DNA of 64,000 nt from Candidatus Zixiibacteriota bacterium (GTDB lineage Bacteria > Zixibacteria > MSB-5A5 > UBA10806 > 4484-95), in assembly GCA_021159005.1 (NCBI GenBank), contig JAGGSN010000012.1:1-64000 (forward strand), given 5' to 3'. This document shows positions 38,163 to 64,000 of the stretch, one piece after another (the stretch's first letter is position 1; each line of letters starts with the position of its first letter). The position numbers and the translations under genes are program-made. Under the pieces are notes generated by a model. It saw only the letters and a list, made by a program, of their open reading frames with translations. It made no database searches and was not told where the DNA came from.

Positions 38163-39131
38163 ATGCCAGAATTGACAGTCGAACAACTTTTCAATAACAA
38201 AAGGGAATTTTTAGACCTCAATATTTTAAACGGCGGCGCCTGTTTAAAAAAGGAAATTCCTTTTAATCAGATATTCCGGCCAGGTTTAGCTCTGGCCGGA
38301 TTTACTGATAGGTTTCCTATATCGCGAACTTTAATTCTGGGTATGACTGAAATATCATTTTTAAGAAGTTTGCCTCAATCTGAACTCGAAGTCTGTTTAA
38401 AGCAGTTTTTTTCCTTTGATATCCCTCTCATAATTATAACCAAAGCTTTAAAACCGCCGTCCCAATTTTTAGTGGAGGCGGCAGCTAATAATATACCTGT
38501 ATTGCAATCTAATCTTAATACAACCGAAATAATTGTCAGATTGTCGACCTATCTTGATAATGTTTTTGCTCCCCGCACAACAATTCATGGCACTTTAATT
38601 GATGTTTACGGAGTTGGTTTGCTTTATACCGGCAAATCCGGCATCGGTAAATCTGAGTGCGCTCTCGATTTAGTTGAACGCGGACACCGTCTGGTAGCTG
38701 ATGATGTTGTGTCTGTTGTCAGGAAAACCCCGGATATTATAGTGGGACAATCTGATGAGCGAATTGGCCATCACATGGAGATAAGAGGTATCGGCATTAT
38801 CAATGTAGAGAAATTGTTCGGAATACGCGCTGTCAGGATGCAGAAGCGGATAGAGGTAGAGGTCAGGCTCGAGTTTTGGGATGATGGGGCGGAATATGAT
38901 CGCCTTGGCGTAGAAGATAAGTACACTACATTGTTAGGCATAGAAATACCGGTGATTAAAGTACCGGTCTCACCGGGTAAAAACATTACAGTAATATCCG
39001 AGGTTATCAGCATGAATCACATGCTTAAGGTTTTAGGCGAGAACGCCGCTGAAAAATTTATCCAGCGTTTATCGGAAGACCTTACCCGACGTCAAGCGAC
39101 CATAGAGTATCTCGAATCTGATAATGAGTAG
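38163..39131 (+). CDS. hprK: HPr kinase/phosphorylase
   Basis: The 322-residue protein has an N-terminal domain (about 1-130) and a C-terminal P-loop kinase core with GVGLLYTGKSGIGKSECAL (Walker A) and GHRLVADDVVSV (catalytic Asp pair). The HprK signature MEIRGIGIINVEKLFGIRAV is present. HprK phosphorylates HPr on Ser46 and removes the phosphate by phosphorolysis, coupling metabolism to sugar transport or regulation. HPr itself and PTS components are not in the window. The gene is close-coupled to hpf (stop-start gap of 2 nt) and has no separate ribosome-binding site. Compare the related domain fused to an aminotransferase at 59318. Confidence 0.95.
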   Translation: MPELTVEQLFNNKREFLDLNILNGGACLKKEIPFNQIFRPGLALAGFTDRFPISRTLILGMTEISFLRSLPQSELEVCLKQFFSFDIPLIIITKALKPPSQFLVEAAANNIPVLQSNLNTTEIIVRLSTYLDNVFAPRTTIHGTLIDVYGVGLLYTGKSGIGKSECALDLVERGHRLVADDVVSVVRKTPDIIVGQSDERIGHHMEIRGIGIINVEKLFGIRAVRMQKRIEVEVRLEFWDDGAEYDRLGVEDKYTTLLGIEIPVIKVPVSPGKNITVISEVISMNHMLKVLGENAAEKFIQRLSEDLTRRQATIEYLESDNE

Positions 39132-43446: not shown

Positions 43447-43728
43447 ATGAAATACTGGAGAACCCCATTAGATATAGACAAGCTAAAAATTCCACGGGGT
43501 GAGCTCCATATAATCAAAGATCGCTGTAAGGGTTGTGGTTTTTGTGTTGAATACTGCCCCAATGGCGTATTACAGCTTTCTGAGGAGTTTAATGCCAAGG
43601 GTTATCACCCTCCTGAAGTTATTAAGCCGGATAAGTGTGTTAACTGTGATTTATGTGAGATGCTCTGTCCGGATTTTGCAATTTTTTGTTTGCGTGTCGA
43701 GGACGATGAAAAGGAGGTGGCCAGTTGA
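43447..43728 (+). CDS. korD: 2-oxoacid:ferredoxin oxidoreductase, ferredoxin (delta) subunit
   Basis: The 93-residue dicluster ferredoxin has two 4Fe-4S motifs, CKGCGFCVEYCP and CVNCDLCEMLCP, spaced by about 30 residues as in KorD/PorD subunits. It should carry electrons from the thiamine-dependent subunits KorAB. Start 43447 is used because GGAG is 6 nt upstream; an in-frame ATG at 43435 lacks spacing. The gene heads the kor-hdr cluster. Its stop overlaps the TTG start of korA. Confidence 0.9.
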   Translation: MKYWRTPLDIDKLKIPRGELHIIKDRCKGCGFCVEYCPNGVLQLSEEFNAKGYHPPEVIKPDKCVNCDLCEMLCPDFAIFCLRVEDDEKEVAS

Positions 43729-44882
43729 AGGCTAATCCTAAAGATGTATTAACAGGCGCTCATTATCTTGATGGTAATCACGCCTCTGCCGAGGGAGCTG
43801 TTGCCGCCGGATGCAAGTTTTTTGCCGGTTATCCAATTACTCCTTCAACTGAAATCGCCGAGAGATTTTCTCGACGAATTCCGCTTGTTGACGGTGTTTT
43901 CATTCAGATGGAGGATGAGCTGGCAAGCATGAACGCAATTTTGGGAGCATCCTGGGGCGGAGTAAAGTCAATGACTTGTACTTCGGGACCGGGTTTTTCG
44001 TTAATGATGGAAAATTTTGGTTTGGGCATGATGCTGGAAACTCCCTGTGTTTTAGTAAATGTCCAACGCGGTGGTCCCTCAACCGGATTGCCAACTCTGC
44101 CCGGTCAGGCTGATATGATGCAGGCGCGCTGGGGTTCGCATGGCGATTATGAGGTGATTGCCTTAGCGCCCGATTCTCCCCAGGAATCATTTGAACTGAC
44201 CATTCGTGCTTTCAATCTATCAGAAAAATATCGCATGCCGGTATTGGTCATGACCGATGAATGCGTCGGCCATATGACTGAAAAAGTAGTTATACCGCCT
44301 GCTGAGGAAATTGAACTGGTTGAACGAATATACACCGACAAAAAGCCTGGCGAGGCTTGGCCTTATGATGCTAACCCTGATATAATATCCCCAATGCTGC
44401 CGATTGGCAAGGGCTACAAATTCCATGTTACCGGATTGACTCATGATTATAGAGGTTACCCGGTAATCGATGCGGAAACGCAGGAGCATAATGTTCGACA
44501 TCTTATTGATAAAGTAAAAAACAATCTTGACGATATTATCTGGCTTGAGGAAAGTGATGTCGAGGGAGCCGATATTGTGATGATATCCTATGGCATCTCC
44601 TCGCGGGTAGTTCAACCGGCTATAGCGAAAGCTAAGAAGGATGGCATTAAAATAGGGCAAATCAGGATGGTTACCGTCTGGCCATTTCCCGAAAAGCGAA
44701 TTAGAGAGCTGGCTAAAAAGGTTAAATCCCTGATAATGGTTGAATTAAATTATGGTCAGGTATTTCTCGATATGGAACGCTGCGCTGCTGGTAATTGCCA
44801 GTGTCATCTTATAGGTCATGCCGGAGGAACTGTTCATAATCCTGATGATATATATAAAACTATAAAGGAGGCGGTTAAATGA
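43725..44882 (+). CDS. korA: 2-oxoacid:ferredoxin oxidoreductase alpha subunit
   Basis: The 385-residue alpha subunit has GCKFFAGYPITPSTEIAERF (PP-domain motif), GVKSMTCTSGPGFSLMMENF and PCVLVNVQRGGPSTGLPTLP, and a transketolase C-terminal-like domain (VELNYGQVFLDMERC). These are hallmarks of KorA/VorB, which oxidise 2-oxoglutarate or branched 2-oxoacids to acyl-CoA with ferredoxin reduction. The start is TTG 43725 with a very strong AAGGAGGTGG, overlapping korD by 4 nt. Substrate cannot be fixed from sequence alone. Confidence 0.93.
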   Translation: MKANPKDVLTGAHYLDGNHASAEGAVAAGCKFFAGYPITPSTEIAERFSRRIPLVDGVFIQMEDELASMNAILGASWGGVKSMTCTSGPGFSLMMENFGLGMMLETPCVLVNVQRGGPSTGLPTLPGQADMMQARWGSHGDYEVIALAPDSPQESFELTIRAFNLSEKYRMPVLVMTDECVGHMTEKVVIPPAEEIELVERIYTDKKPGEAWPYDANPDIISPMLPIGKGYKFHVTGLTHDYRGYPVIDAETQEHNVRHLIDKVKNNLDDIIWLEESDVEGADIVMISYGISSRVVQPAIAKAKKDGIKIGQIRMVTVWPFPEKRIRELAKKVKSLIMVELNYGQVFLDMERCAAGNCQCHLIGHAGGTVHNPDDIYKTIKEAVK

Positions 44883-45763
44883 CAACAAGAACAACTCCTC
44901 CTGAAACAGAAAAACATCCGCTGGAAAATATTCTCCGGATGGACCGCATCCCGCATATCTGGTGTCCTACCTGTGGGCTTGGCACAACAGTAACCGCTTT
45001 GGCATCCGCCCTCGGGAAAGCGGAATTGGATTTGAATAAAGTTGCCGTTGTTTCCGGCATAGGCTGTACCGGTCGTGTTGCCGGCTATTTAAAGCTTGAT
45101 TCTTTTCATACGACCCACGGTAGAGCGCTTCCTTTTGCGGCCGGATTAAGCATTGCCAGACCCGATATGAAAGTTATTGTATTTTCCGGAGATGGCGATC
45201 TATCCTCTATCGGCGGCAATCATCTGATTCATTCAGCCCGTCGAAATCTGGATATTACGGTAGTCTGCGTTAATAATTTCATTTATGCCATGACAGGCGG
45301 GCAGGTGGCGCCTACTACGCCGGAAACGGCTATTACTTCCACATCGCCCCATGGCAACTATGAACACCCGTTTAACCTGCCGTTATTAGCGGGGTCATCC
45401 GGGGCGGTATATGTTGCCCGATGGACTGCTTTGCATATACGGCGTCTGACGAATTCGCTTAAAGAGGCTTTACTCAAACCGGGGTTTTCGTTTATTGAAG
45501 TGATTGCTCCCTGTTCGACTCTGTATGCTCGTCTTAATAAACTTGGCACTGGTCTGGATCTGATGAAATTCTATCATGAAAACAGCATTATCAAGCATGG
45601 CGCGGATTTGAATGAAGTTGACATCGATTTCCAATCGAAAATAATTGTAGGCAAGTTTGTTGATAAAGACAAGCCTACTTATATAGAAAGCATGAACATA
45701 GCTCTAAAGAAGAGATACGGCGATAAGTATAAACCCTATGGAGGCGCAAATGGCAACGACTGA
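44879..45763 (+). CDS. korB: 2-oxoacid:ferredoxin oxidoreductase beta subunit
   Basis: The 294-residue thiamine-diphosphate-binding subunit has IPHIWCPTCGLGTTVTALAS (Cys-containing N-terminal site), SGIGCTGRVAGYLKLDSFHT and IVFSGDGDLSSIGGNHLIHS (the GDG...N cofactor motif). It pairs with KorA to decarboxylate the 2-oxoacid. ATG overlaps the korA stop by 4 nt (ATGA), and the gene overlaps korC by 14 nt. Confidence 0.94.
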   Translation: MTTRTTPPETEKHPLENILRMDRIPHIWCPTCGLGTTVTALASALGKAELDLNKVAVVSGIGCTGRVAGYLKLDSFHTTHGRALPFAAGLSIARPDMKVIVFSGDGDLSSIGGNHLIHSARRNLDITVVCVNNFIYAMTGGQVAPTTPETAITSTSPHGNYEHPFNLPLLAGSSGAVYVARWTALHIRRLTNSLKEALLKPGFSFIEVIAPCSTLYARLNKLGTGLDLMKFYHENSIIKHGADLNEVDIDFQSKIIVGKFVDKDKPTYIESMNIALKKRYGDKYKPYGGANGND

Positions 45764-46313
45764 GCTTAGAATAACCGGTCTTGGCGGGCAGGGAGTTATT
45801 CTTACCGGTTATATCATTGGTAAAGCGGCCTCTATTTTTAACAATCAACATGCTACTCTTACCCAGAGCTTTGGCCCGGAAGCGCGCGGCAGCGCTTGCA
45901 GCGCTCAAGTTATTGTCTCTGACGACCGAGTGCTGTATCCATATGTTGCCAATCCTTATATAATGGTTGCAATGTCTAATGAGGGCTACAACAAGTATAA
46001 AGATACTGTTACGAAAAATGGGATTATTCTATATGATAGCGACCTTGTACAAGCTGATAGTAATCATTCAAACATTAATACTTTCGGAGTTCCGGCTACT
46101 CGTTTTGCAGAGGAACTCGGCCGCAAAATAGTCCTGAATATAGTTATGCTTGGTTTTTTTGGCGCTATTAACGAAATAATTCCGAAAGATGCTTTACGCA
46201 AAGCTGTTGAAAGCTCCGTCCCTTCGGGCACAGAGGAATTAAATCTAAAGGCTTTCGATAAAGGATTTGACTTCGGCGCAAAGTTAAAAAAACAAAATAA
46301 GGTTAAAGCATAA
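45750..46313 (+). CDS. korC: 2-oxoacid:ferredoxin oxidoreductase gamma subunit
   Basis: The 187-residue gamma subunit has the family N terminus LRITGLGGQGVILTGYIIGK and QSFGPEARGSACSAQVIVSD, which contact CoA and the alpha-beta core. ATG 45750 is chosen because GGAGG lies just upstream; an earlier in-frame ATG at 45738 lacks it. The korDABC set is complete. The 45-nt gap to the hdrA gene suggests a single transcription unit with the downstream electron-transfer genes. Confidence 0.93.
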   Translation: MATTELRITGLGGQGVILTGYIIGKAASIFNNQHATLTQSFGPEARGSACSAQVIVSDDRVLYPYVANPYIMVAMSNEGYNKYKDTVTKNGIILYDSDLVQADSNHSNINTFGVPATRFAEELGRKIVLNIVMLGFFGAINEIIPKDALRKAVESSVPSGTEELNLKAFDKGFDFGAKLKKQNKVKA

Positions 46314-46358
46314 TTTGTGGGATAATCAACTATGAGTTTTCAGCATAAGGATAACGCT

Positions 46359-49300
46359 ATGCCCCAGAAAAATAATAGAGAAAAAGGGGTTTTAGTAATT
46401 GGTGGAGGTATAACCGGGATTCAAGCCGCTCTCGATTTGGCGTCATCCCGCATTAAAGTTTATTTGGTTGAAAAATCACCTTCATTAGGAGGGCGAATGG
46501 CTCAACTCGATAAAACTTTCCCCACCATGGATTGCTCTATATGAATACTCGGACCTCGCATGATGGATGCCGGTCGGCATCCCAACATTGAGGTTTTCAC
46601 TAATTCCGAACTTGTGAAATTTAGCGGTAATGCGGGTAATTTCAGGGCAGTTGTGAAAAAACATCCCCGATATATAGATGAGAACCTTTGCACCGGTTGC
46701 GGTGTCTGCACCGATAGTTGTCCTGTTGCGGTTCCCAATGAGTTCGAGGTTGGTATGGGAGCTCGCAAGGCTATATATTCGCCATTTCCGCAGGCAGTTC
46801 CCAATACATATATAATCGACAGACAAAACTGCCTCAACAATGATTTCTTGGTTTGCTCAAACTGTCAGGATGTCTGCGACCGCAATGCTGTAAACTATGA
46901 TGACACTGGCGAGGAGATTGAAATTGAAATCGGCTCTGTTGTTGTTGCTACCGGCTTTGATGTTTACGATGCTTCTGCTATTCCAAGTTATGGTTATGGC
47001 CGTTATGAGAACGTGATGACCAATATGGAAATGGAAAGAGTGTTAAACTCCTCCGGACCTACTCAGGGTCATTTTGTCAGGCCATCCGATAAAAAATCGC
47101 CCAAGAAAATCGCCTTTATTCAATGTGTCGGCTCTCGCGGCGAGGGCAAGGAAGCCGGTTGTCAGTATTGCTCCCGTTTCTGCTGTATGAATGCTATTAA
47201 AGACTGCATGCTGGTTAAGCAGCATGAACCGGATATCGAAGAGCTAACGGTTTTCTTCATTGATATTAGAGCCGCGGGTAAAGGGTTTGAGGAATTTTAC
47301 CAGCGTTCTTTGGATATTCCCGAATTGAATTATGTTCGGGGCAGACCATCTAAGATAGTAGAAGATTCGGAGACTAAAGATATTATCGTATTTGTAGAAA
47401 ATGGCGAAACCGGCGAGATTAACCATGTTAGGGTCGATATGGCTGTTCTATCGACTGGGGCTATGGCTTCCGAGTCTAATAAAGGCTTGGCTGAGATTCT
47501 TGGCGTCGAGCTTGATGAGAACAATTTTTTCAATATCGACACTAAGTATGGATCGCCGCTTCATACAGTTAAAGAAGGTATTTTTGTTTGTGGCTGTGCG
47601 GCTGGTATAAATGATATATCCGATTCGGTTTCTCAGGGTTCTGGCGCGGCGGCTGAGGCTGAAAGATTCGCCTCGAAGCTTCGCATTGAGGAAAAGCCCC
47701 GCGAGATTAAAGAGCTTGATATCTCAGGACCACTGAGAATTGGCGTATTTCTGTGCCATTGCGGGATAAATATCGCTGGCGTTATTGATATTCCGTCGCT
47801 TCAGGAGGAAGCTGAAAAAATCCCTGATGTTGTGCATGTCGAGAAAAATGTTTTTATGTGCTCTGATGAAGGCCAGCGTTTGATACAGGAAAAAATCGTT
47901 GAATATAAGCTTAACCGGGTGGTTATAGCGGCCTGCACTCCTCGCACGCATGAACCGATATTCCGCGAGAATTGTGAACTTATCGGTCTTAATCCCTATT
48001 TGCTGGAGATGGTTAATATTCGCGACCAATGTTCTTGGGTTCATGCAAGCGTTCCGGAAATGGCTACGTTGAAAGCAAAAGATTTAATAAAAATGGGCGT
48101 CGCTAAAGCGCGTTACCTTCAGCCGCTTTATAAAAGCTCTATTCCAATCAATCAAAGCGTGCTGGTAATCGGCGGCGGTGTTGCCGGTATGCGCGCCGCT
48201 TTGGATCTCGATGCGCAGGCCTTCAGGGTTACGCTTATCGAAAAAGAAGGACGGTTGGGTGGACGGTTAAACAATTTGACCAAAGTATATCCAGCCAATC
48301 TAAATGCAGTTGAGCTTGCCCGAACGATGGTGGAAAGACTTCAAGCCAGCCGGGTTGAGGTGATGGTTTCCACCGAAATTACCTCTATAACCGGCTATAT
48401 CGGTAATTTTGATGTTGCGACTACTAACGGCAATTTCAAAACAGGAACCATTGTTATGGCAACCGGTTCGGATGTTTATAAGCCCGAAACAGAGTATGGT
48501 TATGATAAATATGATAATGTCATTACCAATCAGGAGCTTGAAAATATTCTTAATGATTCAAGGGGGAAAATTATAATTAATGGCAAGACGCCTGAAACCG
48601 TTGTCTTTATACAATGCATCGGCTCACGCGACCCGGAAAAGAACGCTTACTGTTCGAGATACTGCTGTCCTACCACTATTAAACAGGCTATTCGTTTGCG
48701 AGAGGCAAGTATAAATGTAGTCGTGCTTCACCGCGATATGCGTACGGTTGGCGCCAAAGCCGAGGAACAATATCGTCATGCTCGTTCTTTGGGCGTTAAG
48801 TTCATTCGTTATACTCCTGAGAGACTTCCCGAAGTTACAGGGAAAGATAAGAATGCTGATAGCGTAAAAATACTCGAATTGGCACTGAACCGTATCCTTG
48901 AAGTGCCGGTTGATTTAGTAACGTTGGCTTGCGGCATGGTTCCCAACAAAGAATCAACAGGCAAGCTTCATGACATTCTAAAAGTTTCGATTGGAGCAGA
49001 CGGCTTTTTCATGGAGAGCAATGCTAAACTTGGTCCGGTTGAAACTACCAGTGAGGGTGTGTTCTTAGCCGGATGTGTCAGCGGTCCGAAAGATATTTCA
49101 GATTCGATAGCGCAGGGTTCGGCTGCTGCTGCTAAAGCGGCTCGGTTTATCGCCCGCGATACCGTAGAGCTTGAACCAACTACCAGCACGGTAAATCAGG
49201 CATTATGCCGCGCTTGCGGTTTGTGTGTGGATATCTGCGATTATCATGCGCCGGCGCTGGTTATGACCGATTCCGGTTATATGGCGGCGGAAATAAATCA

Positions 49301-49424
49301 GGCATTATGCAAAGGCTGCGGCACTTGCACAAGCTGGTGTCCGACTGGCGCTATTACCTCGCTTCATTTCACTGATGACCAGATTAACGCCATGATGGAT
49401 GTATTATTAGCAGGCAAGGAATAG
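46359..49424 (+). CDS. hdrA: selenocysteine-containing double-module HdrA-like flavoprotein
   Basis: I read the frame through in-frame TGA 46542-46544 as selenocysteine, giving about 1021 residues with Sec at position 62. ATG 46359 has AAGGA 7 nt upstream; ATG 46332 is possible. Module 1 has an FAD motif ([17 protein letters not shown]), PTMDCSI-U-ILGPRMM, ferredoxin motif [12 protein letters not shown] and [14 protein letters not shown]. Module 2 begins with [16 protein letters not shown], has a second FAD motif ([17 protein letters not shown]) but lacks the DCSxC/Sec stretch and the following ferredoxin. It ends in two 4Fe-4S motifs ([24 protein letters not shown]). HdrA proteins carry the bifurcating FAD in heterodisulfide-reductase-type complexes. 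Partners are probably MvhD, HdrCB and the second HdrA downstream. Sec decoding rests on the SECIS hairpin and on the parallel with the second gene. Confidence 0.87.
46542..46582 (+). promoter_or_regulatory. UGA-Sec codon and bacterial SECIS element of hdrA
   Basis: TGA (46542-46544) is followed after 20 nt by GGATGCC (46565-46571), loop GGTC (46572-46575) and GGCATCC (46576-46582), a perfect 7-bp stem. The apical loop starts 27 nt after the codon, inside the range known for bacterial SECIS, and GGTC resembles the GGUC of E. coli fdhF. The second element at 51706-51746 has the same geometry. Confidence 0.87.
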
Positions 49425-49427
49425 GAT

Positions 49428-49895
49428 ATGGCAACAAAAGCAACCGGTAAAAAGAAAAAATCAAATATAAAAGTATTTGTCCCGAATTTAGTAGTTTTTG
49501 CCTGCAACTGGTGCAGTTATGCCGGAGCCGATAATGCCGGCGTAAGCAGGATTCAGTATTCACCGAATTTCAGAGTCATTAGGACTATGTGTTCAGGTCG
49601 GGTTACTTCCGGGTTTGTGCTTAAGGCTTTAAAGATGGGCGCCGACGGCGTGCTTGTATCCGGCTGCCACTTTGGCGATTGCCATTATATATTCGGCAAT
49701 TACAAAGCAGTAGATCAATTTGAAAAGACTAAAGCGTTAGTAAAAACTCTCGGGTTGGAGGAAGAACGCATCCGTCTCGAATGGGTTTCCGCCGCTGAGG
49801 GTCCGCGATGGGGACAGGTTATCGATGAGTTTGTCGAACAAATTACAAAATTGGGTCCCAGTCCTTTTAACTATAAACCAAAATATGAGAATTAG
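49428..49895 (+). CDS. mvhD: MvhD/FlpD-type iron-sulfur electron-transfer subunit
   Basis: The 155-residue protein matches the MvhD/FlpD family: VVFACNWCSYAGADNAGVSR, RTMCSGRVTSGFVLKALKMG, LVSGCHFGDCHYIFGN and an ending region RLEWVSAAEGPRWGQVIDEF. The conserved Cys residues bind a 2Fe-2S cluster. In methanogens this subunit connects hydrogenase or formate dehydrogenase to HdrA. No such catalytic subunit is present here, so it may pass electrons between KorABCD-reduced ferredoxin and HdrA; that is inference. It follows hdrA by 3 nt and precedes hdrCB by 5 nt. Confidence 0.93.
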   Translation: MATKATGKKKKSNIKVFVPNLVVFACNWCSYAGADNAGVSRIQYSPNFRVIRTMCSGRVTSGFVLKALKMGADGVLVSGCHFGDCHYIFGNYKAVDQFEKTKALVKTLGLEEERIRLEWVSAAEGPRWGQVIDEFVEQITKLGPSPFNYKPKYEN

Positions 49896-49900
49896 CATCT

Positions 49901-51037
49901 ATGGAAACAACTGTTGAAAAACTTAAGCAGAACCGAGCGTTCCTCTGTTTGGAATGCGGCAAATGTACTGCCGTATGTCCAATAGCTATTTATAATAAAA
50001 GTTTTTCGCCTCGCCGGATGTTGGCTGATGGTGTTTTCTATAATGCAGCAGATTTAATATCCGACAAACTTCTATGGTCATGCCTAACCTGCCAGCTATG
50101 TACTCAGCGGTGTCCTGTCGATGTCAAATATTCTGACTACATGCGTGATATTCGCGCCGAGGCATCCAAGCAGGGTAAAACCGGCAGTCCATCACACAGC
50201 GGCGCTCTGCTTCATCTTATGGAAATGGCGACTGCCCCTAAGCTAAAACAGAACAGAAACAGCTGGATTAACAATAAGCTTAAAGTGAAAAAGAAAGGCG
50301 ATGTTCTATACTTTGTTGGGTGTTTGCCCTATTATCAGGATTTTTTCGCCAAGGATTTCGATTTCACACCGATTTCAATAGCTCAGGACACTGTCAGCAT
50401 CCTTAACAAATTGGGGATTGAGCCGGTAGTAATGGATAACGAACGCTGCTGCGGGCATGATCTTTACTGGCTGGGTCAGCTTGAGCAATTCGATGAGCTG
50501 GGCAGAATAAACCTTGAGCTGATTAAGGCAACAGGCGCAAAAACTATCATCACATCATGCCCTGAATGCGCTCTCGTCCTGAAAAAACTATATTCGGAAA
50601 GGCTGGGCGGAAATCTGCAGGTTAAGCATATTACCGAAGTGGTTTTTGAGAATATCGATAAGCTGAAGTTCAAGAATATTGATACAAAAGTATCATTCCA
50701 GGATCCCTGCCGTTTGGGTAGATACATGGGGATTTATGACCAACCGCGGGAATCGCTTAAGGCTATTCCCGGTCTTGAGATAAACGAAATGCAGCACAAT
50801 AGGCGCGGCGCAATATGTTGCGGCACAACCAATTGGACTAATTGCGATGCAGTCTCAAAACAGATTCAGAAAAGCCGATTAACCGAGGCTAAAAACGCCG
50901 GCGCAGAAACCGTTGTAACAGCCTGCCCAAAATGCCAGATACATTTTAGATGTTCTGAGAGCGGCGATGAGTCTCAGAAAGTAAATATTAAAATAACTGA
51001 TTTTGTAAATATTATAGCTTCAGTTCTTGAGGGTTGA
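49901..51037 (+). CDS. hdrCB: fused HdrC-HdrB heterodisulfide-reductase-like subunit
   Basis: The 378-residue protein joins an HdrC-type ferredoxin domain (CLECGKCTAVCP near 17 and CLTCQLCTQRCP near 63) to an HdrB-type domain with two CCG motifs. The first is VGCLPYYQ...ERCCGHD...SCPEC (about 140-225) and the second QDPCRLGRYM...ICCGTTNW...ACPKCQ (about 268-345). In HdrB these bind the two noncubane 4Fe-4S clusters that reduce disulfides. The usual substrate CoM-S-S-CoB belongs to methanogens, so the physiological acceptor in a bacterium is unknown. HdrC-HdrB fusions are known in bacteria. It lies 5 nt after mvhD in the cluster. Confidence 0.92.
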   Translation: METTVEKLKQNRAFLCLECGKCTAVCPIAIYNKSFSPRRMLADGVFYNAADLISDKLLWSCLTCQLCTQRCPVDVKYSDYMRDIRAEASKQGKTGSPSHSGALLHLMEMATAPKLKQNRNSWINNKLKVKKKGDVLYFVGCLPYYQDFFAKDFDFTPISIAQDTVSILNKLGIEPVVMDNERCCGHDLYWLGQLEQFDELGRINLELIKATGAKTIITSCPECALVLKKLYSERLGGNLQVKHITEVVFENIDKLKFKNIDTKVSFQDPCRLGRYMGIYDQPRESLKAIPGLEINEMQHNRRGAICCGTTNWTNCDAVSKQIQKSRLTEAKNAGAETVVTACPKCQIHFRCSESGDESQKVNIKITDFVNIIASVLEG

Positions 51038-51096
51038 ACTAAAATAATGATGATTGATAATAAAATGACAGCATCAGGCAAGCCGGGAGTTAATGT

Positions 51097-53583
51097 ATGG
51101 CAAATGAGTTAAATAAACCCGAGGACTTGCGGATAGGTGTGTTTGTTTGCGAGTGCGGGCTTAATATCGCCGGCACTGTGGATTGTACCGCTGTTAGCGA
51201 ATATGCAAAAACTCTCGATGATGTAGTAGCGGTAGTTCAAAACAAATATACTTGTGCCGACCCCGGTCAAAATGAAATTAAAAAGGCGATTGCGGAACAC
51301 AACCTCAACCGTGTTGTGATTGCTTCCTGCACTCCAAAAATCCACGAGCCTACTTTCAGACAGTGTGTTGCAGATGCCGGTTTGAATCCATACCTGTTCG
51401 AGATGGTTAATATTCGCGAGCATGTAAGCTGGGTTCACCAGAAAGAGAAGGATAAGGCGACCCAGAAAGCCAAAGACCTTATCAGAAGCGGCGTAGCCAG
51501 AGCGCGTTTCCTCGAGGAACAAACTGAATCTGAGGTGCCGGTTACCAAAGCCGCATTAGTTATCGGCGGCGGCATTGCCGGCATTCAGGCGGCGTTAGAT
51601 TTAGCTGATGGCGGCCATAAAGTATATCTGGTGGAAAGAGAGGCTACCATCGGCGGAATAATGGCGGCGCTTGATAAAACTTATCCGACGATGGACTGCT
51701 CAATATGAATACTCGGCCCCAAGATGATGGATGTCGGTCGACATCCGAATGTCGAGTTAATGAGCTATAGCGAGGTTGAATCGGTTACCGGTTTTGTCGG
51801 AAATTTCCATGCGACGATTCGCAAAAAAGCCCGCTATGTTGACCCTACGGAGTGCACCTCATGCGGCGAGTGCGCCAAGGTTTGTCCGGTGGCTATCCCG
51901 GATGCGTACCAACAGGGATTTTCAACGCGCAAGGCAATCTATCTGCCGTTTCCGCAGGCGGTGCCGTCATCGTATGTTCTTGATATGGATAACTGCCTTG
52001 GCAACAACCCGATTGCGTGCGGCAAGTGCCAAGATGTTTGCGAGAAAAAGTGCATCGATTATGATGATGAAGACAAGCTGGTAAATATCGAGGTCGGCGT
52101 GATTATCGCCGCTACCGGTATGGATGTTTATGACCCTACTGATTATGATGAATACGGCTATACTCGTCATCAGAATGTAATCACAAGTATGGAATTTGAG
52201 CGCTTGATTTGCGCCGGCGGGCCGACTGAGGGTCATTTCGTTCGCCCGACAGACATGAAAGCGCCTAAGAGTATCGGCTTTATCCAGTGTGTCGGTTCAC
52301 GTTCGCGGGATGGCCGCGGCAATCCTTACTGTAGTAATATTTGTTGTATGAATACGGTAAAGGATACGCTTCTGCTGTGCGACCATTATCCCGGCGTTGA
52401 TATTAAAGTTTTTTATATGGATATTAGAGCTTTCGGTAAAGGTTTTGAAGACCTGTATATGCGCAGTAAGGAAGAGGGTGTTAAATATATCAGAGGCATT
52501 CCCGGTGATGTTGCTGAGGACCCCGAAACGAAAAACCTGGTTCTAACTGTTGAGAATACTACCACCAGCAAACTCGAAAAACATGAACTCCAGATGCTAG
52601 TTTTATCTCAGGGCGTAATACCGCGCAAGGATAACGATAAGCTCCAGCATCTTCTTACCCTATCTACTACATCGGATGGTTTCATAATGGAATCGCATCC
52701 CAAGCTAAAGCCTGTTGATGCTCCTACAAAGGGCGTATTCTTAGCCGGTTGTATCGAGTCGCCGAAAGATGTCAAAGACAGCGTAACTCAATCGGGTGCA
52801 GCGGCGGCAAGAGCCAGTATTTTGCTGAATGCCGGTAAAACCAAGATTGAGTCAATTACTTCGATGGTTGATCCCGATAAATGTAATTACTGCGGCTTGT
52901 GTGCAAAAGTTTGTCCCTATAACGCTATCTTGTCATCCGATAAAAAGACTAAAAAACTGCCAACGATTATTCAGGCGGCTTGTGCCGGTTGCGGCGCTTG
53001 CGCGGCTGAATGCCCGCAGGACGCAATCTATATGCGTCATTTCCGCGATGAGCAGATTATAGCGCAGATTGAAGGGATTTTAGCTGAAAGACCTTTTGAA
53101 CAACTTATCGTGTTTGCCTGCAACTGGTGTAGTTATGCTGGGGGCGATATGGCTGGTACATCAAGACTTCAATTCCCAACCTCGAGCCGCTTGATTAGGA
53201 CCATGTGCTCGGGGCGTGTCGATGAGAAATTCGTGATGCATGCTTTCAAGCTGGGCGCGCCTATGGTGCTCGTATCCGGCTGTCATTTCACCGACTGTCA
53301 TTATATAAGCGCCGTTCAATGGACACAAAAGCGAATGGATAAATTATGGAGCAAGATGGATAAACTTGGCATCCGGGATGAAAGGCTTCAACTTGAGTGG
53401 ATATCAGCCGCTGAGGGTCAGAAATTCGCTAAGGTCATGCGTCAGATGGAGGAAAAACTCAAGACCGTAACCGTTGAGGAAATCAAACAGACAATGAAAG
53501 TGCTTGAAGAAGAGGAAAAGAAAGAGAAAGCTAAAGCCGAAGCAAAAATGAAAAAATCAAATACTGCGGAGGTGAGTTCCTGA
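51097..53583 (+). CDS. hdrA2: selenocysteine-containing HdrA-MvhD fusion protein
   Basis: Reading TGA 51706-51708 as selenocysteine (position 204) gives about 828 residues. The N-terminal domain has RIGVFVCECGLNIAGTVDC; an FAD motif [18 protein letters not shown] follows, then PTMDCSI-U-ILGPKMM. Ferredoxin motifs are CTSCGECAKVCP and, further on, CNYCGLCAKVCP and CAGCGACAAECP. From about residue 680 an MvhD domain is fused (VFACNWCSYAGGDMAGTSR, RTMCSGRVDEKFVMHAFKLG, SGCHFTDCHYI). A Lys/Glu-rich tail of about 50 residues ends the chain. The fusion places the HdrA flavin and the MvhD cluster on one polypeptide, while a separate MvhD is encoded at 49428. It ends overlapping the zinc-ribbon gene. 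Confidence 0.88.
51706..51746 (+). promoter_or_regulatory. UGA-Sec codon and bacterial SECIS element of hdrA2
   Basis: TGA (51706-51708) is followed by GGATGTC (51729-51735), loop GGTC (51736-51739) and GACATCC (51740-51746). Stem length, loop and distance are the same as in the first hdrA, and one C-G pair is replaced by T-A, keeping pairing. The amino acids encoded (ILGPKMMDVGRHPN) are also conserved, so some of the similarity is protein-driven. Confidence 0.87.
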
Positions 53584-53976: not shown

Positions 53977-55560
53977 TTAAAACCGCCGGAAATGACGCTT
54001 TAATCCAATTACTATAAAGGCAAACATTATTATAAGAACCGCTGTATTCAAAAATGGAATAAGCAAGCCCCAAAAATTATGAGGTACATCAAAGGTATAT
54101 TTGAAAGGCAAATAATTTGTCGGTATGATGCGATATAATGTAAAGATCAAGGAGTCCCAAATTGTAGCATCAGAATATTTAATTATTTCATCTTCTTGTT
54201 TTGTGCCAATTTTAATTCCGATACAAAAATTTAGTATCGTGAATACTGCAATATAAACCACAAACCAAATTGAACTCCATAAGGGCTTCTCGCCATAACC
54301 GGTAAATACTTTGTATAAATAGTAAAAGATGTATTTACTGAATATTTTCCTGAACTGCTGATAAAACCATTTTGCGGGCTGCCGTTGAAATATTTTTCGC
54401 TTTGGTTTACTGTTTTCTATATCATCTTCTAAAGCTCGTCTTTTCATCTCAAGCTCGTTAAAATAAAATAATCCGGCTTGCTGGTAGTCTTTAGAGTTAT
54501 CTAAGGCGGTTTTCATCTGGCGGTAGAGTGGGGAAATGTCTTTATAGTTTTTCAAGTCATTTATATGATATTTATCTCTAAATTGAGCAGCTTGATGTTC
54601 ATCGGTAATGTTTTTAGCTAATTCTTTTAGCAAGCTTTCTTCTGGAATGATGTTTTTTCTCTTATATGGAAATATTAAAATTCGGTCATTTGTCTTACCC
54701 CATTTACATGATATTAATCGAGCTTCATCATAGGAACTTTTATAGAATGAAAATAACGACATATCGTTATTAGTGAAGAATACATCCTTTAGCTGGCAGT
54801 AACGGAAGATAAAAAATGGTTTATCTTTAATATCAAATTTAATATTTCCAAAATATGATGCAAAAGGATTAAAGCGCACATTGTCAAAATTTATTAAAAT
54901 ATTATTAGATAAAAACTTGGGATTGTGAAAATCAAATCCACATTTATCTCCAATATATATGTAACGAAATTCCATTTCTCTATAGATTTTAATATCGTGG
55001 AAAACTGTATGATTATTAAATTGTGTTAACACAAAGGAGGCATTATTTTCAAAATTGGCTTCCTCAAAAGTCGCTATATTTTCAAATATTGCTTTATCAA
55101 ATATTGCTTTATTCTTAAATTTGCATTTTTGAAAATAAGCATAATTTTTAAATACTGAATTTTCAAAATCTGCTAAATCTTCGAACTTAACATTACTAAA
55201 ACTTACTATGTCATGAAATTTACTACTTGTAAAAAGAGCTTTTCCTTTGAAGGCTAAATTTGTAAAATCTACGGAATCTTCAAATATAGCATATGCAAAG
55301 TTTACATCACCATTAAATTCACAACATGCAAAGTCAGCACTTTCTTCAAATCTTCTATTACCAAAATTACTAGCTATCGGAAAAACATATCCCCGAAAAT
55401 TATAATCCTTCCTATCAAGCTTCTTAAAAATCAGCTTATTAAACTCCTCGCCCGTAATCCCCTTCTTATCCTTAGGCGCATGGAAAACACAATACTCATT
55501 ATCATGCGGGCTGTTTACCGGTTCGTTACAACCATCATAAGCACAGATTTTATCAGCCAT
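53977..55560 (-). CDS. pentapeptide-repeat membrane protein with N-terminal Cys/His motif
   Basis: The 527-residue protein begins with a putative metal-binding segment (CAYDGCNEPVNSPHDNEYC plus VFH). A long run of F-centred pentapeptide-like repeats follows (about 70-290; for example ADFACCEFNGDVNFAYAIFE and AIFDKAIFENIATFEEANF), which would fold into a right-handed beta-helix. A charged region leads to two or three transmembrane helices at the C terminus (about 430-525; WSSIWFVVYIAVFTILNFC, GLLIPFLNTAVLIIMFAFIV). The coding DNA is markedly AT-rich compared with neighbours, which hints at horizontal acquisition. It is not in an operon. Function is unknown; related repeat-TM proteins are annotated only as pentapeptide-repeat proteins. 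Confidence 0.78.
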   Translation of the reverse strand: MADKICAYDGCNEPVNSPHDNEYCVFHAPKDKKGITGEEFNKLIFKKLDRKDYNFRGYVFPIASNFGNRRFEESADFACCEFNGDVNFAYAIFEDSVDFTNLAFKGKALFTSSKFHDIVSFSNVKFEDLADFENSVFKNYAYFQKCKFKNKAIFDKAIFENIATFEEANFENNASFVLTQFNNHTVFHDIKIYREMEFRYIYIGDKCGFDFHNPKFLSNNILINFDNVRFNPFASYFGNIKFDIKDKPFFIFRYCQLKDVFFTNNDMSLFSFYKSSYDEARLISCKWGKTNDRILIFPYKRKNIIPEESLLKELAKNITDEHQAAQFRDKYHINDLKNYKDISPLYRQMKTALDNSKDYQQAGLFYFNELEMKRRALEDDIENSKPKRKIFQRQPAKWFYQQFRKIFSKYIFYYLYKVFTGYGEKPLWSSIWFVVYIAVFTILNFCIGIKIGTKQEDEIIKYSDATIWDSLIFTLYRIIPTNYLPFKYTFDVPHNFWGLLIPFLNTAVLIIMFAFIVIGLKRHFRRF

Positions 55561-59203: not shown

Positions 59204-59223
59204 GAGCGTATTGCAATACGCTC
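59204..59223. repeat. perfect 20-bp palindrome, GGCGTATGCAATACGCC type
   Basis: GAGCGTATTGCAATACGCTC is an uninterrupted palindrome and a relative of 5416-5434 and 57206-57222. It lies between the lipoprotein gene and the 3' end of the aminotransferase fusion. Confidence 0.65.
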
Positions 59224-59317: not shown

Positions 59318-61684
59318 TTACCTGAGAACTTCCCTGCCTTGTCCGGTAACTATGTTAAGCAATGCCTTTTGAACTTCCTTGGGGCTTCCCGCGCCTGTGT
59401 TAATAAGATAACAATCGCATTTGCTCAGCATCCGGGTATAGAAACGCTTTTGCTGTTCGATTCTATCGGTGGTTTTAACAAGCATGTATGGATTATAAAA
59501 CGGATGGCTATGCTCGGAAACAGCATCGGCAGGCGGGCGACCCTCCTCGAGAACCTGAAGCGCCCTGTCGGGAGCAACCTGCTCTGTTATCTGCCCGAAA
59601 TTATCCCGTTTGAAAATAAGCACCGTTTTTACCTGCGTGCGTTTTGTATGCTTATCCTGACCCCCAAGCCAGTATGGGTCGAGCATTACTTTAGAATCGG
59701 ATGAGGCTATGAAGCAATACGGTTCGCCCTTATCAAGCACGCATGAATCATCATAAAGGCATTCAGTGTTTTCGCACTGCTCTTTTAAGGTAACCACGTT
59801 CTCGCACTTGCTTCTTTCAAATAATGTTCGGGCGGCTGGATAGCGTTCGACAAAATCGGCAGGCATATAGAATTTTCGCTCGATACTATCGGCCATAACC
59901 GCCGGACCGCTGAGACGGATAAACGCGATATCATCGCTGACAATCTTAGCCTTGCCCTGCTTTAAGAGTCCGGCTACATGAGTCGATTTGCCGGAAGCCG
60001 GCGGGAAAAACATCAAAGCGCCTCTGCCGTCAATATCGAAACAGGCGGCATGAACCGCCAATGTATTATAAAGCTTTTCAGAAATATCAGACACGATGCC
60101 CAAAGCCAAGCTGCGAAGCTGTGAATAGTAAGCAGACTTGAAGAAGAATCCCGTATGCGATTCGGGATTATAGTAGGCGCGCGCTTCCCGTCCGGGGATA
60201 TTTTTGACTGCATAGATTATGCCGTGCGGTTCAATATCAGCCTCAAGTTCAGCCGGATAGAAATTCTCAGCCCAAAATTCGTTAAGATGCGGGCTGTTGG
60301 TTCTTAATTGCAATACCACGCCGGCTATATTAACATTCCATTCATAGTAGTTATCATAGCTAAAAGCGTTTTCCGATTCGTTAACCAATGCCTCTCTCAT
60401 CTCCAGATTAATAGATGATTCCAACTCGACAAAATCACGCTGTTTTGTTGTCGTATTGTTAAGAGCTTTGCCTTTCGCTTTTCGTGATGGCGTAAGTTCG
60501 GCTAACGCATCGCTGATGCGGGTTAATGCCTCATCGATTCGCTCCATAGAATCGGCATAAGACAGGCGTATAAAACCCTCCATGCCGAAAGCATCGCCGG
60601 GCACAACCGCTACATGCGCATTTTTCATCAGGTAATATGCCATGCCGTAGGAGTTGCGGATTGAGTTGCCGTTATATTCCTTATCAAAGTAAGCGCTGAA
60701 ATTGGCGAACAGATAAAATGCGCCGCGCGGTTTGGGACATGATATGCCGGGTATTGACAGAAGCCTTGAATATGCCAGGTTGCGGCGGCGTTGAAATTCG
60801 TACACCATCTTTTCAATATCAAGCTGAGGGCCGAGTAAAGCCTCAATCGCCGCTTTTTGCGAGATTGAACAGGCATTAGAGGTATTATGCCCCTGTATCA
60901 TGTTCATACCAGCGATAATTTCCTTTGGTCCTGCCGCATAACCGAGACGCCAGCCAGTCATCGAATAGGCTTTGGATACGCCGTTGATTATAACGGTGAT
61001 GTCTTTAGCTTGCGGCGAAATTGCGGCGGCGCTGTAAAACTTGAAGCCGTCATAAACAAGCTTTTCATATATCTCATCGGCGATAATAATGATATTCTCC
61101 GATACGGCAATATCAATAATTTCCTTAAGTTCATCTTTTGTATAAGCCGCGCCGGTTGGGTTGGAGGGATTATTCAGAAACAGCGCTTTTGTTCGGGGTG
61201 TAATAGCCTCGGCGAAATCTTTGGGATGAAGCAAGAAACCGTTTTCCTCACTGCAATGCACATAGACGGGCGCTCCCTTAGCCAGATTGACAATCGCCGG
61301 GTATGAGACCCAGTAGGGGCTGGGTATGATTACCTCATCGCCTTTATTCAAGATAGCCGTGCATAGATTAAATATGCTGTTTTTCGCGCCGGTGGAAACT
61401 ATTATCTGGTTGGGATTATAATCAAGTCCGTTATCATCATGAAGCTTTTTAATAATCGCCTGTTTTAACTCCGGTATACCGGGATTTGCCGTATAATGAG
61501 TGAAATTGTCATCGATAGCCTGCTTGCCGGCTTTCTTGATATTTTCGGGAGTAGAAAAATCCGGCTCGCCTATTGAAAGATCAATGACATCAATTCCCTC
61601 GGCTTTAAGCTGTTTAGCTTTTGCCGAGATTCGCAAGGTGGCTGATTCGCCTATTCGTTGAAGTCTGTCTGCTAAAAGTCCCAT
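59318..61684 (-). CDS. aminotransferase fused to HprK-like P-loop domain
   Basis: One frame of 788 residues. Residues 1 to about 395 are a class I aspartate-type aminotransferase: IDLSIGEPDFSTPENIKK, ALFLNNPSNPTGAAYTKDE, INGVSKAYSMTGWRLGYAAG (PLP-binding Lys) and GFIRLSYADSMERIDEAL. After a basic linker (SRKAKGKALNN), residues about 415-788 resemble HprK-related kinases: ALMFFPPASGKSTHVAGLL is a P-loop (GKST) and KAKIVSDDIAFIRL parallels the HprK catalytic Asp pair RLVADDVVSV. The first half probably transaminates aspartate or an aromatic or branched amino acid. The second could phosphorylate a protein or small molecule, or be an inactive regulatory domain. It lies 5 nt downstream of the flotillin gene, so the two are one operon. 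I know of no standard name for this fusion. Confidence 0.88.
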   Translation of the reverse strand: MGLLADRLQRIGESATLRISAKAKQLKAEGIDVIDLSIGEPDFSTPENIKKAGKQAIDDNFTHYTANPGIPELKQAIIKKLHDDNGLDYNPNQIIVSTGAKNSIFNLCTAILNKGDEVIIPSPYWVSYPAIVNLAKGAPVYVHCSEENGFLLHPKDFAEAITPRTKALFLNNPSNPTGAAYTKDELKEIIDIAVSENIIIIADEIYEKLVYDGFKFYSAAAISPQAKDITVIINGVSKAYSMTGWRLGYAAGPKEIIAGMNMIQGHNTSNACSISQKAAIEALLGPQLDIEKMVYEFQRRRNLAYSRLLSIPGISCPKPRGAFYLFANFSAYFDKEYNGNSIRNSYGMAYYLMKNAHVAVVPGDAFGMEGFIRLSYADSMERIDEALTRISDALAELTPSRKAKGKALNNTTTKQRDFVELESSINLEMREALVNESENAFSYDNYYEWNVNIAGVVLQLRTNSPHLNEFWAENFYPAELEADIEPHGIIYAVKNIPGREARAYYNPESHTGFFFKSAYYSQLRSLALGIVSDISEKLYNTLAVHAACFDIDGRGALMFFPPASGKSTHVAGLLKQGKAKIVSDDIAFIRLSGPAVMADSIERKFYMPADFVERYPAARTLFERSKCENVVTLKEQCENTECLYDDSCVLDKGEPYCFIASSDSKVMLDPYWLGGQDKHTKRTQVKTVLIFKRDNFGQITEQVAPDRALQVLEEGRPPADAVSEHSHPFYNPYMLVKTTDRIEQQKRFYTRMLSKCDCYLINTGAGSPKEVQKALLNIVTGQGREVLR

Positions 61685-61689
61685 GGTAA

Positions 61690-63111
61690 TTATTCGCCGT
61701 TTTCGGAATTATCAGACTTATTGGATTTCTGATTTGGCAGGTTTTTCAACAACTCTTTGAGGTCGAATCCCGAAAGCGTTTTGACTACATCCGGCAATTG
61801 AGCTAATACATTAGTAACCTGACCGGTGATTTTCGAGGCGCCATCCGCGCCATTGCCAACCATCACAATCTTATCTACTTTGGAAAGCGGCTCGGAAACT
61901 GCTCTGGCAAGATCGGGCAGGACATCGATGAACATCTTATAGATAGCCGCTTGATTGTATTTAGACCACGATTCCGCTTTCTTAGCCATCGCTTCAGCCT
62001 CAGCCTCGCCCTGAGCGCTTATTACCTCGGCTTTAGCCAATCCCTCATGTTTGATAGCTAATGCTTTGCCTTTGGCGGCAGAGCCGAGTTTATAACTGGT
62101 TGCATCCGCCTCGATTTCAACCTGATATTTCATAGCATCGGCGGCTTTTTTAACTGTCGATTCAAGCTCTTTCTCTTTGCGGAGGATTTCTTTTTCCTCA
62201 AGTTTAATAGACTGTTCTTTTTCAATCAGGCGAACCTGGTATTCTTCTTTCTTTAACTGCTGGTTCATTTTTAGACGTTCAATGTCGTAGGTTGAATCGG
62301 CGACGGCTCTTTTCTGGTTTATGCCGGATTGATAATCCGCCCGCTGCATTTCATAATCGCGGCTGGCTTGAGCAATTTCGGTCTCGGCTTTGAATTTGGC
62401 GATATCGCCCTCTTTACGAGCACCCGCTGATTTTATAGTTGCATCCCTATCAGCCTCTGCCTGGGCAATTTCAGCCTCGCCCTTGATTCTGGCGATATAT
62501 GGTTTACCGAGAGCTTCCAGATATCCCTGTGAATCGCTGATTTCTTTTAAGGAGAATGACAGTATTACTAAGCCCATCGCATCGAAAGCCTTGACAGCCT
62601 GCGTTTGAACTTTACCGGCGAATTCATCACGGTTTGTATATATCTCCTCGACAGTCATCGAACCCAACACACCGCGCATGTTGCCCTCGAGAATTTGCTG
62701 GGAGATGTCTTTCATGCCGGATAAGCCTTTGCTTAAAAACTGCTCAGCCGCCATCCTGATAGAATACTCATCGCTTTTGACCTTAACCTGTGCCTGACCT
62801 ACGGAATTCAGTTCGATGCCTTTAGCGGTTAAACCATCATGAATTTCGATATTTAACGTGAAAACCTCAAGCGGCAAGATATCCGCTCGTTCAAGAATCG
62901 GCATAACAAATGTGCCGCCGCCGACATGCATTCTATAACCAATTTTGCGCTTAGTACCATCAGCTTCGGTTACAGTCCGCTTGCGGCCGCCTGAAATAAT
63001 TAGAACCTCGTTTGGCCCAACCTTGCGGTATTGTTTTGACAAAGCGATAAAGAATAGAATTAATAATATTATGATTACGCCGGCGAAAATAAACCATCCT
63101 ATTAAAGACAT
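61690..63111 (-). CDS. flotillin family membrane protein
   Basis: The product has one N-terminal transmembrane helix (about 5-26, GWFIFAGVIIILLILFFIAL), an SPFH/Band 7 domain (about 28-190; VGPNEVLIISGGRKRTV, QILEGNMRGVLGSMTVEEIY) and a long coiled coil rich in Glu/Ala/Lys (about 210-400; AEIAQAEADRDATIK). The C-terminal domain contains KMFIDVLPDLARAVSEPLSK and VTNVLAQLPDVVKTLSG. Flotillins organise membrane microdomains and scaffold complexes. ATG 63111 is chosen with AAGGAG 8 nt upstream; the earlier frame to 63165 lacks one. The aminotransferase-HprK fusion follows in the same operon, so a functional link is possible. Confidence 0.92.
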   Translation of the reverse strand: MSLIGWFIFAGVIIILLILFFIALSKQYRKVGPNEVLIISGGRKRTVTEADGTKRKIGYRMHVGGGTFVMPILERADILPLEVFTLNIEIHDGLTAKGIELNSVGQAQVKVKSDEYSIRMAAEQFLSKGLSGMKDISQQILEGNMRGVLGSMTVEEIYTNRDEFAGKVQTQAVKAFDAMGLVILSFSLKEISDSQGYLEALGKPYIARIKGEAEIAQAEADRDATIKSAGARKEGDIAKFKAETEIAQASRDYEMQRADYQSGINQKRAVADSTYDIERLKMNQQLKKEEYQVRLIEKEQSIKLEEKEILRKEKELESTVKKAADAMKYQVEIEADATSYKLGSAAKGKALAIKHEGLAKAEVISAQGEAEAEAMAKKAESWSKYNQAAIYKMFIDVLPDLARAVSEPLSKVDKIVMVGNGADGASKITGQVTNVLAQLPDVVKTLSGFDLKELLKNLPNQKSNKSDNSENGE

Positions 63112-63454
63112 ATTCAAACTCCTTTTTTCATTTTCATATAAGCAGCAGGCAATTTGGCAAGGCAAGCAACGCTTACATTAAAACACCTCAAACCTGCAAT
63201 ATTTCGACACGTCAACATATATAAATCAAATCATTTCCGCAATAGTTTTCCATACATCTTTTAAAAAATTAAACAAAAAGGGCTTATATAATCCATGTTA
63301 AGCTATAATAATAAGCATAAATAAGGCAAAGGGTTAAATTATTAATTAATCTTTCTTGTTGATTTTACTGATTAAAACATTTATTTTGAGTTGTGATAAA
63401 AGGTGCAATCTTAATAAGACTGCGCAGGAAATTATAATTAAACAGGAACGTTTT
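63112..63454. other. divergent promoter region
   Basis: No gene or repeat family member is seen. The region is AT-rich and should carry the promoters of the flotillin gene (minus) and of the partial gene starting at 63455 (plus). Confidence 0.35.
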
Positions 63455-64000
63455 ATGAGTGATATTTATAAAGTAGAGGAATACCAGAGATTCGCAGATA
63501 ACCTTAAGGCTGTTTTGGATGGTCCGAATATTAAGTCTTTTAAGCTTAATCAGCTCCGCAAACATGCCTTAGAAACCGGCAGGCAAACCAGTAATGGTGC
63601 TTGGTCGTGGCGATCGTCTGTGTCATCGCGAATCGGACCGAAAACCGTTTATCTTGGCGGTGAAAAAGTTCGACTGCCCAAACCTACCGAATTGCATAAA
63701 TCAATTATCGAAAACGCTCCGGATGAACTTCATAAAGTCCTGCATCTGATGAGGACTTTGCCGTTTATTCATCTGCGCCGTCAGATGGCTAACAATTCCG
63801 AATATAATCCGATATGCAACTTGTATATCAGCGTTGCCGATAAGACAAATTTCCGCTTGGCCTATATGTGGGGCAACACGATGTTCGACCCAAGCAAGAG
63901 ACCGGGACCTGAATTTACTATGATACACATACCGGAGGAACATCATCTCCGCCAGCAGGTGCTGTCAATTCCTGAGCATAATATCAATATTGCTCTTGGC
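63455..64000 (+). CDS. N-terminal part of a PEP carboxykinase-like protein (cut by window edge)
   Basis: ATG 63455 has AGGA 7 nt upstream and the frame stays open for 182 codons to the window end. It starts MSDIYKVEEYQRFADNLKAV and later has MRTLPFIHLRRQMANNSEYN and RLAYMWGNTMFDPSKRPGPE. The spacing of hydrophobic strands and of a charged-to-aromatic segment is reminiscent of the N-terminal region of an ATP-dependent PEP carboxykinase subtype. The catalytic kinase motifs would lie outside the window, so this assignment is tentative. It is divergent from the flotillin-aminotransferase operon. Confidence 0.55.
   Translation, partial: MSDIYKVEEYQRFADNLKAVLDGPNIKSFKLNQLRKHALETGRQTSNGAWSWRSSVSSRIGPKTVYLGGEKVRLPKPTELHKSIIENAPDELHKVLHLMRTLPFIHLRRQMANNSEYNPICNLYISVADKTNFRLAYMWGNTMFDPSKRPGPEFTMIHIPEEHHLRQQVLSIPEHNINIALG

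Follow-up and report, generated by a model that had tools for sequence, protein, structure and literature searches.

The 64,000-nucleotide stretch of DNA analyzed here (the window) encodes a 788 aa protein (59318-61684, minus strand) in which an aspartate aminotransferase is joined to a domain with a predicted PEPCK fold, as identified from the ORF list, profile searches and homologues. We moderately favor an explanation in which this protein is a working aspartate aminotransferase carrying a regulatory or partner-binding domain devoid of PEPCK chemistry, which would act together with a separate PEPCK, while a flotillin would place the module at the membrane. As a part of this explanation taken whole, and held with the same moderate confidence, the module would be a non-orthologous replacement for the ordinary aspartate aminotransferase-PEPCK gene pair. 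The components read from the sequence are the fusion, the predicted fold, the residue losses, the operon, the co-occurrence and the in-place replacement at the locus.

The fusion gene is one uninterrupted frame. A preliminary description of this DNA had proposed that the fusion is real and recommended searching for it elsewhere, and both suggestions were borne out. A fused frame of ~782 aa was found again in relatives down to 37-39% identity (C half), and scanning of genome contigs yielded 145 confirmed related loci, of which 80 were kept. The gene is fused in 80/80 unless a contig end interrupts it. The fused frame in relatives and in the fetched loci rules out an assembly or frameshift artefact. 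It occurs in many uncultured phyla; the 80 loci are titled Zixibacteria, Aminicenantes, Acidobacteria, KSB1, Calditrichota, Latescibacterota, Ignavibacteria, Planctomycetota, TA06 and others, phylum titles that come from MAG labels and may be wrong. Homologues encoded as two independent genes would have spoken against the preliminary reading. Close homologues are all fused, and the exceptions are a bare aminotransferase in one genome (G002) and a distant stand-alone relative of the second domain in two others (G017 and G031). The two halves are connected by a linker of about aa 396-417 (60434-60499, minus strand) modeled with low confidence (pLDDT about 44). The full-length model has a pTM of 0.52, at which the inter-domain arrangement is unreliable, and we therefore left that arrangement uninterpreted. 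Just past the 3′ end of the gene is a perfect 10+10 nt palindrome, GAGCGTATTGCAATACGCTC (window 59204-59223).

Within the window's class, a match to the C half occurs in 34/98 genomes, 32 of which hold the fusion, in some of them truncated by a contig end. The remaining two are G017 and G031, whose stand-alone protein is 31-32% identical to the C half of the fusion. This PEPCK-fold relative (574 aa; L113:8419-10143, minus strand, and L114) has an intact P-loop, APTGTGKST, and an HSDD motif, adjoins ABC-transporter genes and is possibly close to the protein from which the fused domain descends. A tree built with a quick method from the aminotransferase half unites the fused proteins in a single group (SH-aLRT 94). 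G002, which belongs to the window's own family, encodes an unfused 404 aa version that is sister to the fused family members within the fused group (SH-aLRT 100). Because it is nested inside this group, G002 most likely lost the PEPCK-fold domain secondarily. Genome searches of G002 returned neither the divergent PEPCK described below nor the flotillin; absences of this kind are soft because nearly all of the genomes are metagenome assemblies.

The aminotransferase half (aa 1-395; 60500-61684, minus strand) is of fold type I and its catalytic residues are all intact. Aminotran_1_2 (PF00155) spans aa 32-390 (E 3.6e-81, 273.6 bits against a cut-off of 19.7), and the best PDB match is the aspartate aminotransferase 6f77 (E 2e-112), with 6f35 also matching. 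The preliminary description had read the aminotransferase core as intact, and this is confirmed. The PLP lysine motif SKAYSMTGWR (aa 237-246; 60947-60976, minus strand) is present, and its Lys238 is conserved in 92/92 homologues, as are D203, Y206 and R246 (equivalent to Asp222, Tyr225 and Arg266). R373, the equivalent of Arg386, is kept in 91/92. The residues S14, T16 and K101 are invariant, which is consistent with acidic substrates, a reading based on what we take to be the role of Lys109 in Thermus. In its PF00155 match, catalytic residues and best PDB matches the half resembles class-I (1-beta type) aspartate aminotransferases, from which the fusion differs in bearing a C-terminal domain of 370 residues. 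In the profile search, none of the NCBIfam models reached its equivalog cut-off for this half.

Upstream of the fusion gene, ending at 61690 and leaving a gap of 5 nt, is the gene for a flotillin-type SPFH protein (61690-63165, minus strand; likely ATG start 63111) that matches Band_7 (E 1.4e-23, 84.2 bits against 23.6) and Flot (E 2.1e-7, 31.5 bits against 27). This tight linkage had been singled out as a clue, and it is conserved: a flotillin gene directly precedes the fusion in 65/80 loci, mostly at <50 nt, and lies one gene further away in 1 more. A check of the genes that keep company with the fusion found that flotillin and PEPCK recur among the 80 loci. The flotillin type is not exclusive to fusion genomes, as four non-fusion genomes hold a relative at the 42-44% level; there it adjoins other genes, several with PspC-like neighbours. 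Elsewhere in the window, a long block (43725-53583, plus strand) seems, judged by its sequence, to encode 2-oxoacid:ferredoxin oxidoreductase and heterodisulfide-reductase-like proteins, which suggests electron bifurcation, and a pentapeptide-repeat protein (53977-55560, minus strand; PF13576, E 1.6e-16) has apparent C-terminal transmembrane segments.

On the opposite strand from the flotillin gene, and pointing away from it, is the start of a gene for a divergent ATP-PEPCK of 618 aa (63455-64000, plus strand, continuing to contig position 65311). The protein matches PF01293 (E 3.3e-23, 82.6 bits against a cut-off of 26.5) and, over nearly its full length, NF006821 (E 6.1e-84; 282.5 bits, under the cut-off of 369). 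Its Y185, K190, K191, H210, G240, K241, D264, D265 and R330 are invariant, and the equivalents of Tyr207, Lys212, Lys213, His232, the P-loop, the DD pair and Arg333 are all kept (Tyr207, Lys212, Lys213 and His232 follow what we take to be E. coli numbering). This gene is near the fusion in 49/80 loci, either directly downstream of it or upstream of the flotillin (mostly divergent, as here). The window genome also encodes a canonical PEPCK. Among the 98 genomes of the class, 29 have the divergent PEPCK and the fusion is present in 29/29 (Fisher p 8e-22, on related and hence non-independent genomes); in G004, G007, G010 and G011 both are present, unlinked. We searched 50 fusion genomes, nearly all from phyla other than the window's, for PEPCK types. 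The divergent PEPCK is found in 38/50; 36 of these were searched for other ATP-PEPCKs, and in most it is the sole one. An ATP-PEPCK was found in 0/12 of the fusion genomes without it, and 8/12 of those encode a GTP-PEPCK vs. 2/38 of the genomes with it (p 3e-5; mostly one clade); neither type was detected in 4/50. An obligatory linkage of the fusion to the divergent PEPCK is ruled out by the genomes in which they are unlinked and by the 12/50 in which it is missing.

Two further observations concern the genes around PEPCK. A nucleoside-diphosphate kinase (NDK) gene separates the fusion from the divergent PEPCK at L122:10249-10668 (minus strand), and likewise at L121, L123, L124 and L138-L145. 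In that position the NDK gene is restricted to a clade with a degenerate P-loop in the fusion, and its placement might be relevant to which nucleotide the divergent PEPCK uses. Another diverged type of ATP-PEPCK, about 595-619 aa long (L112:8214-9998, minus strand, with similar genes in families f10 and f16), matches PF01293 in two pieces (E about 1e-30); in the one locus read, its neighbours include no aminotransferase and no flotillin. Being of a different lineage without such neighbours, it was set aside as a part of the fusion system.

An adjacent pair of genes for aspartate aminotransferase and canonical PEPCK is present in 37/66 non-fusion vs. 0/32 fusion genomes of the class, counting aminotransferase matches of 1e-60 or stronger. 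At one conserved locus the ordinary order is prfB-pta-[aminotransferase-PEPCK]-fmdB-glcD-gltA. In five fusion genomes of four genera (L122, L123, L139, L140, L144), the cassette [flotillin-fusion-ndk-divergent PEPCK] is found between the same flanks, with the pta flank absent in one of the five. Since identical flanks surround either arrangement, the cassette appears to stand in for the aminotransferase-PEPCK pair, replacing it in place. The ordinary pair thus shares with the module a chromosomal locus in relatives and a predicted pair of reactions. It differs in being unfused, in its canonical PEPCK and in the lack of flotillin and NDK, and its aminotransferases are non-orthologous to the fused one, of which they are not close kin in the aminotransferase-half tree.

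The PEPCK and flotillin partner genes point to the aspartate-oxaloacetate-PEP node and not to protein modification. It is rather unlikely that the aminotransferase instead acts on another substrate, e.g., prephenate, with the PEPCK-fold domain sensing PEP as a precursor of the shikimate pathway and the link to PEPCK being indirect. The class does include bifunctional aspartate/prephenate aminotransferases, one of which (5wmh) matches the aminotransferase half at E 2e-99, and the window genome holds further class-I aminotransferases. However, oxaloacetate is indicated by the exchange, in place, for an aspartate aminotransferase-PEPCK pair and by the conserved association with PEPCK, and aromatic-pathway genes are not among the frequent neighbours of the fusion in the 80 loci.

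The PEPCK-fold domain (about aa 418-783; 59336-60433, minus strand) was assigned by Foldseek against the PDB and by profile alignment and is probably without PEPCK activity. An AlphaFold2 model of the C half, made with 26 homologues as input, has a mean pLDDT of 82.7. Its best 50 PDB matches listed by Foldseek are all PEPCKs (E 4.7e-16 to 1.1e-13), with query TM-scores of 0.62-0.70 over about 400 columns. In profile comparisons the C half can be aligned with canonical PEPCK as far as the catalytic domain extends, C-terminal elements included; its alignment with the divergent PEPCK encoded nearby covers the regions of the P-loop and ENV motif. Unlike ATP-dependent PEPCK, it has no match to PF01293 (ATP-PEPCK) at E <= 1 in the profile search, and its Mn-ligand and P-loop positions are eroded.

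The preliminary description had instead likened this half to HprK, as a second, diverged kinase-like domain in a genome with a true hprK at 38163. The latter is genuine, with N and C domains both found (38163-39131), and a second, diverged kinase-type fold does exist in addition to it as a domain of the fusion. The likeness to HprK stands as far as the P-loop, the SDD motif and a weak local match over the P-loop-strand segment. TIGR04352 (HprK-related kinase A) covers 68 residues only (E 5.7e-7, 28.9 bits against a cut-off of 200), and Hpr_kinase_C (PF07475) reaches 15.7 bits against 33.3. The HprK N-terminal domain (PF02603), found in the true HprK, is absent from the fusion in the profile search, whereas PEPCK-type C-terminal elements are present. 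These sub-cut-off scores, together with the PEPCK fold, rule out assigning the C half to the HprK family. Because the predicted fold is that of PEPCK over the whole length and the alignment continues beyond the HprK segment, PEPCK-derived domain is the better name. PEPCK and HprK belong to one superfamily, which explains the initial impression.

In the window copy, the P-loop PPASGKST (aa 561-568; 59981-60004, minus strand), the SDD motif (aa 583-585; 59930-59938, minus strand) and the His aligned with His232 are kept, and a Ser is at the Lys213 position; residue equivalences to PEPCK were set by alignment and spacing. Given this P-loop, SDD and His, nucleotide binding by the window copy is plausible. 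Across 92 homologues, most P-loops are degenerate relative to the PEPCK consensus GxxGxGK[ST], with the canonical GK[S/T] form kept in 15/92. The second Asp of the SDD motif is kept (D in 85, E in 7) and the first is mostly Asn. Of the Mn ligands, the Lys213 equivalent is Ser in 73/92 and the His232 equivalent is Arg in 80/92. The Lys212 equivalent is Arg in 90/92, and that of Tyr207, on the substrate side, is invariant. The domain looks dead as a PEPCK. Loss of catalytic residues across homologues, which had been named as grounds for doubting the original reading, is thus largely what is seen in the second half, while those of the aminotransferase are intact. Strong purifying selection on the C half is indicated by its dN/dS of 0.02-0.07, a range that holds even for the clade with the degenerate P-loop (changed to GxKRG) and that rules out a decaying remnant. 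The near-invariant residues among the 92 homologues (E448, R461, N463, H487, R603, K604, E628, N629, D669, P670, W672 and R682) are as expected for a conserved pocket or interface.

The catalytic positions also bear on whether the protein is a bifunctional enzyme, in which an active, nucleotide-dependent C domain would act on oxaloacetate or another dicarboxylate, at least where the P-loop is intact, and aspartate would be converted in two steps in one chain. The GKST, SDD and His of the window copy fit such an enzyme, as do the conserved substrate-side Tyr and basic residue and the Lys that three Saccharicenans-like copies retain at the Lys213 position. A full P-loop in some lineages (the window's included) and Lys213/His equivalents in a few make activity of the domain possible there. 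We nevertheless consider the bifunctional enzyme unlikely, as the metal-ligand pair and the canonical P-loop are missing in most homologues, where the domain is equally conserved, and nearly all fusion genomes encode a separate PEPCK. Least probable is the reading of the preliminary description, an HprK-type kinase for proteins (or peptides) whose modification of a target would couple amino-acid metabolism to a pathway of regulation or modification: the local TIGR04352/HprK match and the intact P-loop and SDD of the window copy favor it, but the PEPCK fold over the whole C half, scores far under the HprK cut-offs, the missing HprK N domain, a Walker A motif degenerate in most homologues, and a neighbourhood of PEPCK and flotillin genes that, in the 80 loci, includes no conserved gene for a target protein, leave a protein kinase unsupported.

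In the favored explanation, an aspartate aminotransferase with a non-catalytic PEPCK-derived domain, the first half would interconvert aspartate and 2-oxoglutarate with oxaloacetate and glutamate. The separate divergent ATP-PEPCK (GTP-PEPCK in some lineages) would interconvert oxaloacetate and PEP. The dead PEPCK domain would sense a ligand of the aspartate-oxaloacetate-PEP node or dock a partner, and the dedicated flotillin would probably position the module at the membrane. Counting against this explanation are the four fusion genomes with neither PEPCK type detected, the genomes in which fusion and divergent PEPCK are unlinked, and the canonical PEPCK of the window genome. More tentatively, the assembly may be a flotillin-anchored metabolon, with the dead PEPCK domain partnering a live PEPCK and gating or channelling the oxaloacetate that passes between aminotransferase and PEPCK. 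There is a precedent in malic enzyme, where removal of an inactive phosphotransacetylase domain abolishes allosteric control (PMC8100219). MaeB-PTA is likewise a central-carbon enzyme with a C-terminal inactive domain derived from another central enzyme, and by this analogy the fusion would most likely work in a similar way. It differs in its aspartate aminotransferase, its PEPCK-fold dead domain, its flotillin and PEPCK partners, and in that its regulation is predicted.

Few parts of central metabolism vary as much as the PEP-pyruvate-oxaloacetate node. A review of this node has no match to "PEPCK-like" (PMC8100219), and no relevant literature on the gene set was found among open-licence papers, the limit of our search, so that novelty is provisional. 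The fusion module suggests an unreported control of the point where amino-acid and sugar metabolism branch. If so, an arrangement for control or assembly at the PEP-pyruvate-oxaloacetate node would be widespread across many uncultured phyla, and PEPCK would join the enzymes reused as pseudoenzyme domains. To our knowledge the specific clients of bacterial flotillins are mostly unknown; these proteins would gain a concrete, testable metabolic client.
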